NCBI GenBank assembly: GCA_024743315.1
Contig: JANSWU010000004.1
Coordinates: forward strand, 186,001-250,000
Source: Hyphomonadaceae bacterium
GTDB lineage: Bacteria; Pseudomonadota; Alphaproteobacteria; Caulobacterales; Hyphomonadaceae
Direction of reading: 5' to 3'
DNA length: 64,000 nt
The notes under the pieces are model-generated. The model worked only from the letters and a program-made list of their open reading frames with translations. It was not told the origin of the DNA and searched no databases. Made by a program: the position numbers and the translations under genes. Every line of letters starts with the position of its first letter. The first letter of the stretch is position 1. Shown piece after piece: positions 27,752 through 31,951 of this stretch.

Positions 27752-28291
27752 CTATTCCTCAGTTACAGCCTCAGCCGTTTTGTCTTGTCGCGACATTAGG
27801 AACTGATCCGCAAAGAGCAAGACCGCGCCTACAGATATGGCCGCGTCGGCGACGTTGAACACATAATTAAAAAAGTAAGGCCGAAAGATGCCGCTAAAGT
27901 CGAGAAAGTCGACGACGGCGCCAAATCTCACCCGGTCAATGACATTGCCAAACGCGCCGCCAATCACCAGGGCCAGCGCAATCCCGGTGAAGCGCCGCGC
28001 CGCATTGACCAACCAGACGGTGAATCCAATAGCGATCGCGGTGGTTAGGATCACCAGGACCCAGCGCATTACGCCTTCAGATTGGCCGATACCGAAGCTG
28101 ATCCCGCGATTCCAGACCATGGTCAGGTCAAAAAAGGGAAGAACCTCGATCTGACCACAGCGCTGGGATCGATCGAGACAGCCAATCGCGTTAAACTGTG
28201 GCTCTTCGAGGATCAGGTATTTCGTCCACTGATCGAGGATCACAATGATCGGGATCAAGAAAAACAGCGCTGTGCGAAACGGTTTGGTCAT
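27752..28291 (-). CDS. lspA: Signal peptidase II (prolipoprotein signal peptidase)
   Basis: Removes the signal peptide of lipidated prolipoproteins at the inner membrane. 179 residues with four membrane helices. The catalytic aspartates lie in the two conserved blocks GGAFGNVIDRVRFGAVVDFL and FNVADAAISVGAVLL. DQWTKYLI and VWNRGISFGI are the other family motifs. Overlaps the ileS stop by four bases (ATGA), a common gamma/alphaproteobacterial ileS-lspA arrangement, and directly precedes two lipoprotein genes. Confidence 0.97.
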   Translation of the reverse strand: MTKPFRTALFFLIPIIVILDQWTKYLILEEPQFNAIGCLDRSQRCGQIEVLPFFDLTMVWNRGISFGIGQSEGVMRWVLVILTTAIAIGFTVWLVNAARRFTGIALALVIGGAFGNVIDRVRFGAVVDFLDFSGIFRPYFFNYVFNVADAAISVGAVLLFADQFLMSRQDKTAEAVTEE

Positions 28292-31239
28292 GCTCGGCCT
28301 CGGACCTCCCGGATAGCAGCGGCATCGCGCGGTGTCACATCGGGAAATTCCGGGTCGGCTATGGCTGGATTAAAATATTTCCAGCTGCGTGCGCATTTAA
28401 TGCCGTCGGCTTTGCCAGGCAGGACCGCGACACTTGCTTCTTCTGGCAAGCGGAAGGCATTCTCTGGAGCCTCATCGGTCACAAGTTTGGCTTGTGAGGT
28501 GATGAAGATGTCCTCTGCCGCTTCCCCTTCATAGGCCTTGAGCAAATCAGGATCACTGACGAACACGGTCGGCGCGGCTTCGAGAGACGAACCAATCCGT
28601 TTCTCGCGACGCTCAATCTCGATCGCCCCAGTCACGACACGGCGAACCCGGAAGATTCTCTCCCACCGCGCGGCGAGCTCCGCATCTTTCCAATCGAACG
28701 GCGTTTCCGGCATTTGCAGCAGATGCACACTGTCCGCGCGGTCGGCAAACACGCTCATCAGGAACGCTTCTTCAGTCGTAAATGGCATGATCGGCGCGAG
28801 CCAGGCGAGCAAACGCTCAAGGATCGCCGCCATCACGGTGCGCGCAGATCGACGCCGCAAATCGCTTGGCGCGTCGCAATAGAGACTGTCCTTGCGGATA
28901 TCGAAATAGACCGCTGACAGATCGACCGAACAGAAGTTGAGAAGCGCCATCATCACGCGCTTGAAATCATGCTCGTCATAGGCCTTGCGGACCAGCTCAT
29001 CGAGCTCGGCGAGGCGATGCAGCACCCAGCCCTCAAGACTCGGCATTTCAACCGGCAGGACCGCTTCGTCCGGCGTAAAGCCGTCGAGGGCTCCGAGCAG
29101 ATAGCGCAATGTGTTGCGCAGGCGGCGATAATTCTCGACCGCGCCTTTGATGATCTCATCCGAGATCCGCAAGTCTTCGGTATAGTCCGCGCTGGCGGTC
29201 CAAAGACGCAGGATTTCGATGCCATATTGTTTGGCAAAGTCAGCTGGATCGATCGTGTTGCCGATCGATTTCGACATCTTCTTGCCCTCGCCATCGACAA
29301 TCATGCCGTGGGTTACGACTTGCCGGAACGGGGCCATGCCGCGCGTCGCGCAGCTTTCGAGCAGCGAGGATTGGAACCAGCCGCGATGCTGGTCCGAGCC
29401 TTCCATATAGACATCGGCCTGACCGGTCGCGTCATCGATGATGCCGCGATCGCGCAACGCAAAGGCGTGTGTCGTGCCGCTGTCGAACCAGACATCGAGC
29501 ACATCATTGACCTTGTCCCAACCGGTCGCGTCGGCCAGGAAATCGCCAACTTCGGCAGAGAACCAACCCTCAACGCCTTCCTGACGGATCTTGTTGAGGA
29601 TGCGCTCATTGACGGCGGCCGCTTCGGCTTCTGGCAAGGCCGCCGTGTGCGGTTCGCCTATTTCATTCACCAGGAGCGTGATCGGCACGCCCCAATTGCG
29701 CTGACGCGAGATGAGCCAGTCCGGGCGATCCGCGATCATGGCTTTCAGGCGATTGTAGCCGGTGGGCGGTACGAATTTGGTCTGCTCAATGCCCTCAAGC
29801 GCCATTTCACGCAGCGGCCGCGAGCCATCCTTGCCGGGCGTATCCATGGCAATGAACCATTGCGGCGTCGCGCGCCGGATCACCGGCGCTTTTGAGCGCC
29901 AGGAATGCGCATCGCGGATTGAGGTCATGCCGCGCGCCAGCAGATTGCCGCTTTCGGCGAGCAGCCGGATGACTTCGGGATTGGCCTTGCCTTGCTCGCC
30001 GCGCTTCTTGCCGGAGGTGCGGATGATATCGAGGCCGCGCAGCGGTTCTGGAACGTCGTCCGTGTAGCAGCCGTCAGGATCGACGATCTGACGGATCTGC
30101 TGCGTCGTGCGGCCGGACTCGACCCAGACATTAAAGTCATCCTCACCGTGCGCCGGCGCGGTGTGGACGAAGCCCGTCCCGGCGTCATCAGTCACGTGAT
30201 CGCCGGCCAGCATTGGGATATCGTGCTGGAAAAAGGCGTCCAACTGGTTCAGCGGATGCGATAAGGTTTTTAAGGTCGAAGGATCGACGTCTGAAACGCG
30301 AGTCCAAGCCTTGATCTTGGCGTTGTCTTTCACGCTGTCGGCAAGCGCGTCCGCAATGACCAGACGTTCTCCTGCCCTCGCATAAGGTGCGAAGCCAAGC
30401 TCTTCTTCCGTCATTACGTCTTCGACCTGGAACAAGCCGTAAGAAATGGTTGGGCTGTACGACACAGCTTGGTTGGCCGGGATGGTCCAGGGGGTCGTGG
30501 TCCAAATGACCACGCTGGCATCACCGAGATCAACCGCCGCTTCTTTCACCGGAAATTTCACCCAGATTACCGGCACTTTGCGGTCATGATATTCGACTTC
30601 GGCTTCGGCCAAAGCGGTGCGCTCGACCGGGGACCACATGACGGGCTTGGCGCCGCGGACTAGGCGTCCGCCCATGGCGACGCGTAGGAATTCGCGCACC
30701 GTCGCGGCTTCGGATTCAAAATTCATCGTCAGGTATGGGTCATCCCACTCGCCCTCGACGCCGCAGCGCCGGAAGCCCTGTTTCTGGACCTCGATCCATT
30801 CGGCCGCATATTCGCGGCAAGCACGACGGAACTCATCGCCCGGCACATCATCCTTGGTTCGGCCTTTTGAGCGGAATTGTTCCTCGACCTTCCACTCAAT
30901 CGGCAGGCCGTGACAGTCCCAGCCGGGCAGATAAGAGGCATCATAGCCGCGCATCTGGTGATTGCGGACAATGATATCCTTGATGATCTTGTTCATCGCC
31001 GTACCGAGATGGATCGGGCCATTCGCATAAGGTGGGCCATCATGCAGGATGAACGGCTCCGCCCCGCGCGCCTTGGCATCGGCGCGGAAGCGCTCATAGA
31101 GCTTCATCTCATCCCACTTTTCGATCCACTTTGGCTCGGCTTTCGGCAAGCCGCCGCGCATCGGGAACTCGGTCGTGGGCAGGAACAAAGTGTCCTTGTA
31201 AGGATTTTCGGGTTTTTTCGGTTTGTCAGTATCGGCCAT
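28288..31239 (-). CDS. ileS: Isoleucine--tRNA ligase
   Basis: A class Ia synthetase of 983 residues. The HIGH motif is PIHLG (75-79) after DGPPYANG. The CP1 editing domain follows, then KMSKS at 654-658 (GKKMSKSIGNTIDPADF) and the anticodon-binding domain. The C-terminus retains only one cysteine of the usual zinc-binding segment (GIKCARSWKYFNPAI), where enterobacterial enzymes have four; zinc is probably lost. Overlaps lspA. A candidate isoleucine-rich leader peptide with alternative hairpins lies 63 bases upstream (31303-31362), suggesting control by charged tRNA-Ile. Confidence 0.97.
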   Translation of the reverse strand: MADTDKPKKPENPYKDTLFLPTTEFPMRGGLPKAEPKWIEKWDEMKLYERFRADAKARGAEPFILHDGPPYANGPIHLGTAMNKIIKDIIVRNHQMRGYDASYLPGWDCHGLPIEWKVEEQFRSKGRTKDDVPGDEFRRACREYAAEWIEVQKQGFRRCGVEGEWDDPYLTMNFESEAATVREFLRVAMGGRLVRGAKPVMWSPVERTALAEAEVEYHDRKVPVIWVKFPVKEAAVDLGDASVVIWTTTPWTIPANQAVSYSPTISYGLFQVEDVMTEEELGFAPYARAGERLVIADALADSVKDNAKIKAWTRVSDVDPSTLKTLSHPLNQLDAFFQHDIPMLAGDHVTDDAGTGFVHTAPAHGEDDFNVWVESGRTTQQIRQIVDPDGCYTDDVPEPLRGLDIIRTSGKKRGEQGKANPEVIRLLAESGNLLARGMTSIRDAHSWRSKAPVIRRATPQWFIAMDTPGKDGSRPLREMALEGIEQTKFVPPTGYNRLKAMIADRPDWLISRQRNWGVPITLLVNEIGEPHTAALPEAEAAAVNERILNKIRQEGVEGWFSAEVGDFLADATGWDKVNDVLDVWFDSGTTHAFALRDRGIIDDATGQADVYMEGSDQHRGWFQSSLLESCATRGMAPFRQVVTHGMIVDGEGKKMSKSIGNTIDPADFAKQYGIEILRLWTASADYTEDLRISDEIIKGAVENYRRLRNTLRYLLGALDGFTPDEAVLPVEMPSLEGWVLHRLAELDELVRKAYDEHDFKRVMMALLNFCSVDLSAVYFDIRKDSLYCDAPSDLRRRSARTVMAAILERLLAWLAPIMPFTTEEAFLMSVFADRADSVHLLQMPETPFDWKDAELAARWERIFRVRRVVTGAIEIERREKRIGSSLEAAPTVFVSDPDLLKAYEGEAAEDIFITSQAKLVTDEAPENAFRLPEEASVAVLPGKADGIKCARSWKYFNPAIADPEFPDVTPRDAAAIREVRGRA

Positions 31240-31286
31240 TTGGACGTCTTCGGATCAGCGGATGAAGAAAGGGCTAAGCAATAGAA

Positions 31287-31355
31287 CCCGGCCGCGAGCT
31301 CTTTAAGAGCGGGCGACCGGGCCGCTAATTCGAATAATGGATATGATTGCGGCCC
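31287..31355 (-). promoter_or_regulatory. Alternative RNA stems of the ileS leader (attenuator-like)
   Basis: Arm A, GGGCCGC (31349-31355, leader codons 3-5), is perfectly complementary to arm B, GCGGCCC (31319-31325, codons 13-15); the Ile codons lie in the loop. Arm B also forms the base of a second hairpin (CCCGG/CCGGG, 31287-31321) with inner stems CGC/GCG and GCTCT/AGAGC, whose loop is the leader stop codon. The two structures share bases and exclude each other. A ribosome stalled on Ile codons would cover arm A. No T-run follows, so control might be translational or rho-dependent. Confidence 0.55.
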
Positions 31356-31362
31356 TGCTCAT
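31303..31362 (-). CDS. Candidate ileS leader peptide (Ile-rich, 19 aa)
   Basis: Too short for the ORF track. The frame ATG...TAA encodes MSRAAIISIIRISGPVARS: five Ile codons (ATC, ATA, ATT, ATT, ATT) within residues 6-12, directly ahead of the isoleucyl-tRNA synthetase gene on the same strand. An in-frame TAA lies just upstream, so the ATG is the first start. No Shine-Dalgarno is seen, but a -35/-10-like pair (31369-31397) puts the predicted transcription start about 6 bases after the -10, at the A of the ATG. The peptide would then be leaderless, as known for trpL of Sinorhizobium. The stop codon forms the apical loop of a hairpin. Regulation is inferred from this layout. Confidence 0.68.
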   Translation of the reverse strand: MSRAAIISIIRISGPVARS

Positions 31363-31368
31363 GCGCGT

Positions 31369-31397
31369 CGCTTAGCAGGGCTCGCAGGCGCTGTCAC
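31369..31397 (-). promoter_or_regulatory. Candidate promoter of the ileS leader
   Basis: On the minus strand GTGACA (-35), a 17-base spacer and TAAGCG (-10), ending 6 bases before the leader ATG. The -35 is good and the -10 weak. Position rather than sequence carries the argument. Confidence 0.4.
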
Positions 31398-31435
31398 TCG
31401 CCAATGGCGCTTTGTGCACAGTGCCGGTCTCGGGC

Positions 31436-31951
31436 TTAGCCTTCTGCGGCCGCGGCCGCGAGTTGACCAATGCTGCGCACTAGCGGCGGCGCGCCAGCCA
31501 TCAGGCTGCCAATCTCATGCTTGAAATTCTCGACCTGAACCCCGCCTGAGAGGATCATGTAGCGATCGACGATCAGCTGGTTGTTCGCCAGATACAGGCC
31601 GAACGCGTCCATTTGCATGTCCGCCTGGTTGAGAATCTCCCAGGTCGTGCCTTCTGGAATGTCATGTATGGACCCGATCAGAACGCCCTGACAGGCGGCG
31701 GCCTCGTCACAGACTTTCAACAAGACGAGATATTTGAAACCGCTTGGGGTTTCGACGACGATTCCGTTTCGGGCCGGCATCTCTTCAATAATCGTATGAT
31801 CATATCCGGTCACGATTGCCCGCATGTCGGCCATGGTGACGGCGGAAACGATTCGCGTGTCCGGGGCCGGCGTATCGTCGGATTGGGCCATAACAGGAAT
31901 GGAGGAAAATACGGCTGCAACTGCAGTCGCTGCTAGGAAAGACTTGAGCAT
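31436..31951 (-). CDS. Secreted YbjN-domain-like protein
   Basis: A 171-residue exported protein with signal peptide MLKSFLAATAVAAVFSSIPVMAQ. The mature part alternates strands and helices (MRAIVTGYDHTIIEEMPARN, WEILNQADMQMDAFGLYLAN, QLIVDRYMILSGGVQVENF). This is reminiscent of YbjN/type III secretion chaperone-like folds, where a 'visD/LERDLIL.GG' element is typical. The function is unknown. Located between ribF and ileS on the same strand. Confidence 0.7.
   Translation of the reverse strand: MLKSFLAATAVAAVFSSIPVMAQSDDTPAPDTRIVSAVTMADMRAIVTGYDHTIIEEMPARNGIVVETPSGFKYLVLLKVCDEAAACQGVLIGSIHDIPEGTTWEILNQADMQMDAFGLYLANNQLIVDRYMILSGGVQVENFKHEIGSLMAGAPPLVRSIGQLAAAAAEG

Follow-up and report, generated by a model that had tools for sequence, protein, structure and literature searches.

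Aminoacyl-tRNA synthetase genes can be placed under the control of short leader peptides, as in the pheM-pheST system of enterobacteria, in which pheM combines a run of Phe codons with a terminator/antiterminator switch. Attenuation of pheST is mentioned in a paper (PMC1262725) that also reports T-boxes before ileS in Actinobacteria, elements that respond to the charging of tRNA-Ile by binding the tRNA directly and that contain no open reading frame. Amongst the Alphaproteobacteria, trpL (rnTrpL) of Sinorhizobium meliloti is a classical attenuator with a Trp leader, the target trpE and a transcript starting at the leader AUG (PMC10117765). In Caulobacter crescentus, a combined ribosome-profiling and transcriptome study (Schrader et al. 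2014, PMC4117421) includes the ilvIH leader, a branched-chain amino-acid leader CDS associated with transcription attenuation, and maps an ‘ileS leader CDS’, CCNA_03934. In its main text, that study does no more than name CCNA_03934 and employ it as the negative control of an overexpression assay, and gives no motif, mechanism, regulon or comparison for it.

Here we describe an element that looks like an isoleucine-shortage sensor ahead of ileS and, in many Alphaproteobacteria, ahead of other isoleucine genes as well. Like pheM, it has a leader peptide with cognate codons before a synthetase gene, although it differs from pheM-pheST in having one invariant codon and no conserved alternative structure. 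It is placed before ileS as T-boxes can be, yet a search of positions 31000-31800 returned no T-box or other Rfam family up to E = 1, and no Rfam family reached the gathering score in seven related loci. It resembles CCNA_03934 in being a short CDS in an ileS mRNA leader of the same order, a likeness of description rather than of sequence, and the ilvIH leader comes from this order too. The statement in the earlier note on this DNA, whose author was aware of no leader peptide described for ileS, needs qualifying by the CDS named in 2014, although the main text of that study does not give its mechanism (PMC4117421). Apart from the mention of CCNA_03934, the open-access literature yielded no account of this element, of how it works or of the set of genes under it. 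While the existence of an ileS leader CDS was known before, the proposed mechanism and regulon of the element appear to be new.

The locus lies in the 64 kb stretch of DNA analysed here (the window), and comprises the following features:

28288-31239, minus strand: ileS, the regulated gene in the proposed scheme, coding for an isoleucyl-tRNA synthetase of 983 aa (ileS family TIGR00392, over cut-off)
31303-31362, minus strand: leader ORF of 19 codons plus TAA, running from the ATG at 31362 to the TAA at 31303, with the peptide MSRAAIISIIRISGPVARS
31327-31347, minus strand: isoleucine-rich stretch ATC ATA TCC ATT ATT CGA ATT, its length a lineage feature and only its last ATT invariant
31326-31332, minus strand: core CGAATTA, consisting of CGA (31332-31330), the invariant Ile codon ATT (31329-31327) and an A
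31287-31321, minus strand: conserved hairpin CCCGG...CCGGG, identified by covariation, with the TAA stop (31305-31303) as its triloop

Translation and coordinates confirmed that a 19-codon ORF with five Ile codons in seven ends 63 nt before the ileS start (31239), as the earlier note had it; the Ile codons are ATC, ATA, ATT, ATT and ATT, at positions 6, 7, 9, 10 and 12. Short ORFs are common, and the window contains 946 ATG ORFs of 8-40 codons on its two strands, so that a chance ORF with an Ile-rich run has to be considered; however, the leader is the only one of the 946 with at least five Ile in seven codons, and, given the conservation across orders and the near-zero reversed control described below, chance can be left with next to no weight. 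The leader includes the codon ATA, which ileS itself uses twice, and in ileS CGA accounts for 4 of 76 Arg codons and ATT for 11 of 53 Ile codons. The element is single-copy in its own genome, and the closest ileS relatives among named records come from Henriciella and other Hyphomonadaceae. Upstream of the leader (31436-31951, minus strand) lies a 171-aa ORF that begins like a signal peptide and matches nothing in Pfam.

The upstream regions of ileS genes from the same genus, family and order share the leader, with one to six Ile codons each. What stays constant is a block, CGAATTA N4 CCCGG, which is read in the frame CGA ATT ANN NNC CCG G and codes for R-I-x-x-P. Using the search pattern CGAATTA N4 CCCGG N12-42 CCGGG, we obtained matches in 142 of 389 alphaproteobacterial genomes, compared with one match for a reversed-pattern control, while a phylum-wide draw yielded two matches in roughly 117 non-alphaproteobacterial genomes, neither of which precedes target genes. 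In the Caulobacterales, 88 of 150 genomes match, and all 85 of the 85 sites checked stand 142-208 nt before a match to the ileS profile.

Many of these sites were collected with the core as the search pattern, and the invariance of the core rests on two less biased scans. When all Arg and all Ile codons were admitted, the plausible leaders all had CGA ATT except one with CGA ATC (L257), without the full stem sequence. A second scan, over 209 distinct ileS upstream regions, required of a short ORF no more than an Ile codon placed 8 nt ahead of a stem arm of 6 nt; here 59 matches were CGA ATT, and the clear variant was TCG ATT, from a Brevundimonas-like genus. All eleven further genomes of that genus carry TCG ATT together with an extra Ile codon two codons earlier, giving the core ATT TCG ATT A (L287, L291-L301), in which the Arg is lost and the distance from AUU to the hairpin is unchanged. 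The earlier note had stressed the run of Ile codons; as 12 of 108 non-redundant leaders carry a single Ile codon, the run does not define the element and is instead a feature of particular lineages. Sensing alone does not account for why CGA and the final U of AUU hardly vary, and we suggest that slow decoding of CGA may lie behind this. In one relative (L140), the ileS leader is without CGAATTA but retains an Ile-rich peptide (MPKSILIIAARRAPAPEPAPLG).

The core lies in frame within an ATG ORF at 167 of the 173 non-redundant sites, the figures for the other two frames being 17 and 29, and 137 of the 167 in-frame ORFs reach a stop within 12 codons (2 and 15 in the other frames). Ile is the commonest residue before the core (13%, and 27% at codon -2), and the shortest leaders have just 8-9 codons, with the core right behind the start (MRIIGPAL, MTSRITRPA). 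The leader appears, then, to be a translated short ORF that is conserved ahead of the regulated gene. This bears on the idea of a protein-binding RNA operator, in which IleS or some other regulator would bind CGAAUUA and the hairpin, with ORF translation of secondary importance. Although the nucleotide-level invariance of CGAAUUA and its fixed spacing from the hairpin resemble an RNA motif, the retention of the ATG frame at 167 of 173 sites, the in-frame enrichment of upstream Ile codons and the Brevundimonas-like core, which is without CGAATTA yet keeps AUU in frame, make an operator improbable.

Conservation of R, I and P in nearly all leaders, with a stop close behind, could also point to nascent-peptide arrest, with R-I-x-x-P acting as a SecM-type or RAPP-type motif and the peptide, not the supply of tRNA-Ile, setting the stall. 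Such a motif is very unlikely: residues 3 and 4 are free, CGA and ATT are fixed where synonymous codons would serve, the Pro is imposed by the CCCGG of the stem, the Brevundimonas-like leaders read S-I-S-R-P, some leaders have just 8 residues, and the targets are isoleucine genes. The SecM/RAPP class was rejected on the grounds that the positions after R-I vary freely and that codons, rather than residues, are fixed.

The hairpin is as constant in position as the codon pair. Its first pair stands exactly 8 nt downstream of the A of ATT (11 nt downstream of the C of CGA), and the hairpin was found at the same place in 171 of 173 non-redundant sites, with a commonest length of 23-26 nt; in most sites the leader stop falls 18-27 nt after the C of CGA, within the 5' arm or the loop. 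Because MAFFT misplaced the variable loops of natural elements, N was put in place of each loop and covariation was scored on the stems. Paired cells made up 93.9% of the stems as against 79.8% in shuffles, and 65 cells were changed on both sides as against 18.8 in shuffles, a count reached by none of 500 shuffles. Five complementary outer pairs served as the criterion for placing the stem ends, and the inner five pairs alone are independent evidence of covariation. Sliding the partner by one column brought stem pairing down to about 59%. The refuting conditions named in the earlier note were applied: orthologous regions retain the ORF together with an Ile codon, and the hairpin, the second of the two that the note had described (31321-31287, with the leader TAA as triloop), covaries.

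The first hairpin of that scheme is formed by two arms:

31349-31355, minus strand: arm A, GGGCCGC, which pairs perfectly with arm B in the window and is not conserved in the family
31319-31325, minus strand: arm B, GCGGCCC, which shares positions with the 5' strand of the conserved hairpin

As the earlier note had it, arm A (31355-31349) is exactly complementary to arm B (31325-31319), a complementarity partly kept in some close relatives, and the leader region is more stably folded than dinucleotide shuffles (z = -3.4). This is what would be seen in a classical trp-type attenuator, with one hairpin made of A and B, a terminator made of B and a 3' arm, and the choice between them set by stalling on the Ile run. 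However, upstream complementarity to B is absent over the 173 sites (mean z 0.09), a result on which we rejected arm A as a conserved pairing partner and which leaves the proposed mutually exclusive A/B switch unsupported. Nor was an antiterminator partner of the second hairpin found, since arm A is not conserved, though the second hairpin is. Several leaders of 8-9 codons have the core right after the start, with scant space for an A arm; a U-tract is absent; and masking of A by a stalled ribosome would free B for the second hairpin, a response of the wrong sign should that hairpin repress. Taken together, these points make the trp-type reading highly improbable. We place the element with ribosome-mediated attenuation and set it apart from the trp-type class because exclusive hairpins and a U-tract terminator were looked for and were not found. 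Compared with leaders of the trpL/hisL/pheM type, the run of cognate codons amounts to five of seven in the window, while relatives are enriched in Ile and share one invariant Ile codon.

As to the downstream genes, the element agrees with that type, as ileS, ilvA, cimA and an IlvN-like ACT protein make, sense or charge isoleucine. Class-wide, we classified targets at 90 distinct sites (two ilvA sites had been listed twice and were counted once), finding ileS at 47, an ACT-like gene at 24, an ACT-like gene followed by ileS at 5, ilvA at 2 and none at 12; 52 of the 90 therefore precede ileS, 47 directly and 5 via the ACT-like gene. None of the 90 sites is at ilvIH. Behind the ACT gene lie ilvA in one case (L223; NCBIfam threonine ammonia-lyase, 3.8e-159, over cut-off) and a truncated cimA in another (L151; NCBIfam citramalate synthase, 3.6e-133, just under cut-off). 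The ACT-like protein itself is weak in Pfam, and its predicted model (pLDDT 88.7) has IlvN with valine bound (5ypp, E 1.3e-5) as the top match among solved structures. These observations suggest an isoleucine role for the small ACT protein family, and the set of ileS, ilvA and the IlvN-like ACT gene, in some cases linked to ilvA or cimA, appears to constitute an isoleucine regulon. Tandem complete leaders, about 180-200 nt apart, stand before the ACT-like gene or ilvA in several genomes (L216, L217, L218, L211).

Some sites precede genes without a known isoleucine role, which counts against the explanation that we favour. At L350, L351, L374, L379, L392 and L395, the core and a tight hairpin, in leaders ending ...RI.xPA*, stand before a small P-loop kinase (AAA_33, E 3e-32), and at L341, L402 and L403 this type of leader precedes a protein of about 170 aa with no Pfam match. 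Separately, at L156, L161 and L176 the ACT-like gene is followed by one for a DUF4743 (Nudix-associated) protein, where a functional link is possible.

Upstream of the leader are two promoter-like elements:

31392-31397, minus strand: -35-like GTGACA, whose TGAC is conserved in Hyphomonadaceae
31370-31377, minus strand: -10-like TGCTAAGC, matched in relatives by a conserved CTGCTA 14-17 nt upstream of the leader ATG

The promoter pair GTGACA/TAAGCG of the earlier note does exist, and relatives keep TGAC...CTGCTA, in which GCTA begins 14-17 nt upstream of the leader ATG, though a generic sigma-70 scan gave no site. A G[CT]TA promoter-like element was found 9-20 nt before the leader ATG at 38 of 53 sites from the Caulobacterales and close outgroups, preceded by TGAC in Hyphomonadaceae. 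The conservation of TGAC...CTGCTA makes an almost leaderless transcript plausible, in which transcription would begin at the leader ATG or a few nucleotides before it.

A translated frame, an invariant Ile codon, a covarying hairpin at fixed spacing, an isoleucine regulon and, in one lineage, a long-range stem can all be read from the sequences compared. It is probable, in our judgement, that the element before ileS is one copy of a class-wide, ribosome-dependent isoleucine attenuator, in which a ribosome waiting at AUU would block the hairpin and derepress the downstream gene. Frame, Ile enrichment, hairpin covariation and target identity all agree with the earlier note on its central point, a translated leader that would sense isoleucine through an Ile codon and act on ileS. 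A ribosome would load at the leader AUG of an almost leaderless mRNA and proceed to CGA-AUU, where, if charged tRNA-Ile were scarce, it would pause while AUU occupied the A site. The leading edge of a ribosome is some 12 nt past the point at which the A-site codon begins. With the hairpin starting 8 nt after the A of AUU, the waiting ribosome would therefore cover or abut the CCCGG base and prevent the hairpin from forming, so that the downstream gene would be expressed. With plentiful Ile-tRNA, the ribosome would reach the stop inside the hairpin and depart, the hairpin would close and expression would drop. Such a scheme would work with a single structure, in keeping with the lack of a conserved upstream partner arm. 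We infer the stalling at AUU under isoleucine shortage, the direction of the response and its output, be it termination or another step.

The chances seem evenly balanced for a stronger form of this proposal, in which the class-wide regulon would be governed by a minimal single-codon attenuator. With the rare Arg codon CGA in the P site and the weaker Ile codon AUU in the A site, CGA-AUU would park a hungry ribosome on the base of one hairpin, such that sensor and switch would be the same element of about 35 nt, in a leader that can be as short as 8 codons and without alternative structure. If true, the Alphaproteobacteria would possess a dedicated sensor of isoleucine charging that ties the supply of the tRNA synthetase to the synthesis of isoleucine. 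With a geometry of just one codon pair, 8 nt and one hairpin, such a sensor would test the minimum that an attenuator needs, a single hungry codon, and the pattern serves as a search tool for new members of the regulon.

Regarding output, TTTT occurs within 20 nt of the hairpin in 20% of sites, U-richness after the hairpin is modest, and no terminator-like site was found in the 64-kb window. Because the hairpin is without a good U-tract, it is doubtful that intrinsic termination is the output in general. We nevertheless favour termination, possibly Rho-dependent, over sequestration of the start site as the general case, because of the modest U-richness after the hairpin and the variable distance to the gene.

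One lineage may add a further layer, through pairing of the core region with sequence close to the ileS start:

31322-31334, minus strand: 5' arm TTCGAATTAGCGG of a lineage-specific long-range stem, identified by pairing analysis
31248-31261, minus strand: complementary arm CCGCTGATCCGAAG, which ends 8 nt before the ileS ATG, a possible sequestor of the ileS start region in the Henriciella lineage only

General pairing of CGAAUUA with downstream sequence was rejected (mean z -0.5 overall), being clear in the Henriciella lineage only, and no pairing of the core with upstream sequence was seen (mean z 0.00). Within the Henriciella lineage, the core pairs with an arm whose end lies 8-15 nt upstream of the ileS ATG, with up to 10 uninterrupted pairs and z down to -7, and in the window 12 of 13 positions pair. 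Sequence changes in this long-range stem are confined to one of its sides, and sites outside the lineage do not have it. When free of ribosomes, the core TTCGAATTAGCGG would pair with CCGCTGATCCGAA before the ileS AUG and could hide the start region, in which case a stalled ribosome would also release translation of ileS. An additional translational layer of control is thus likely in Henriciella.
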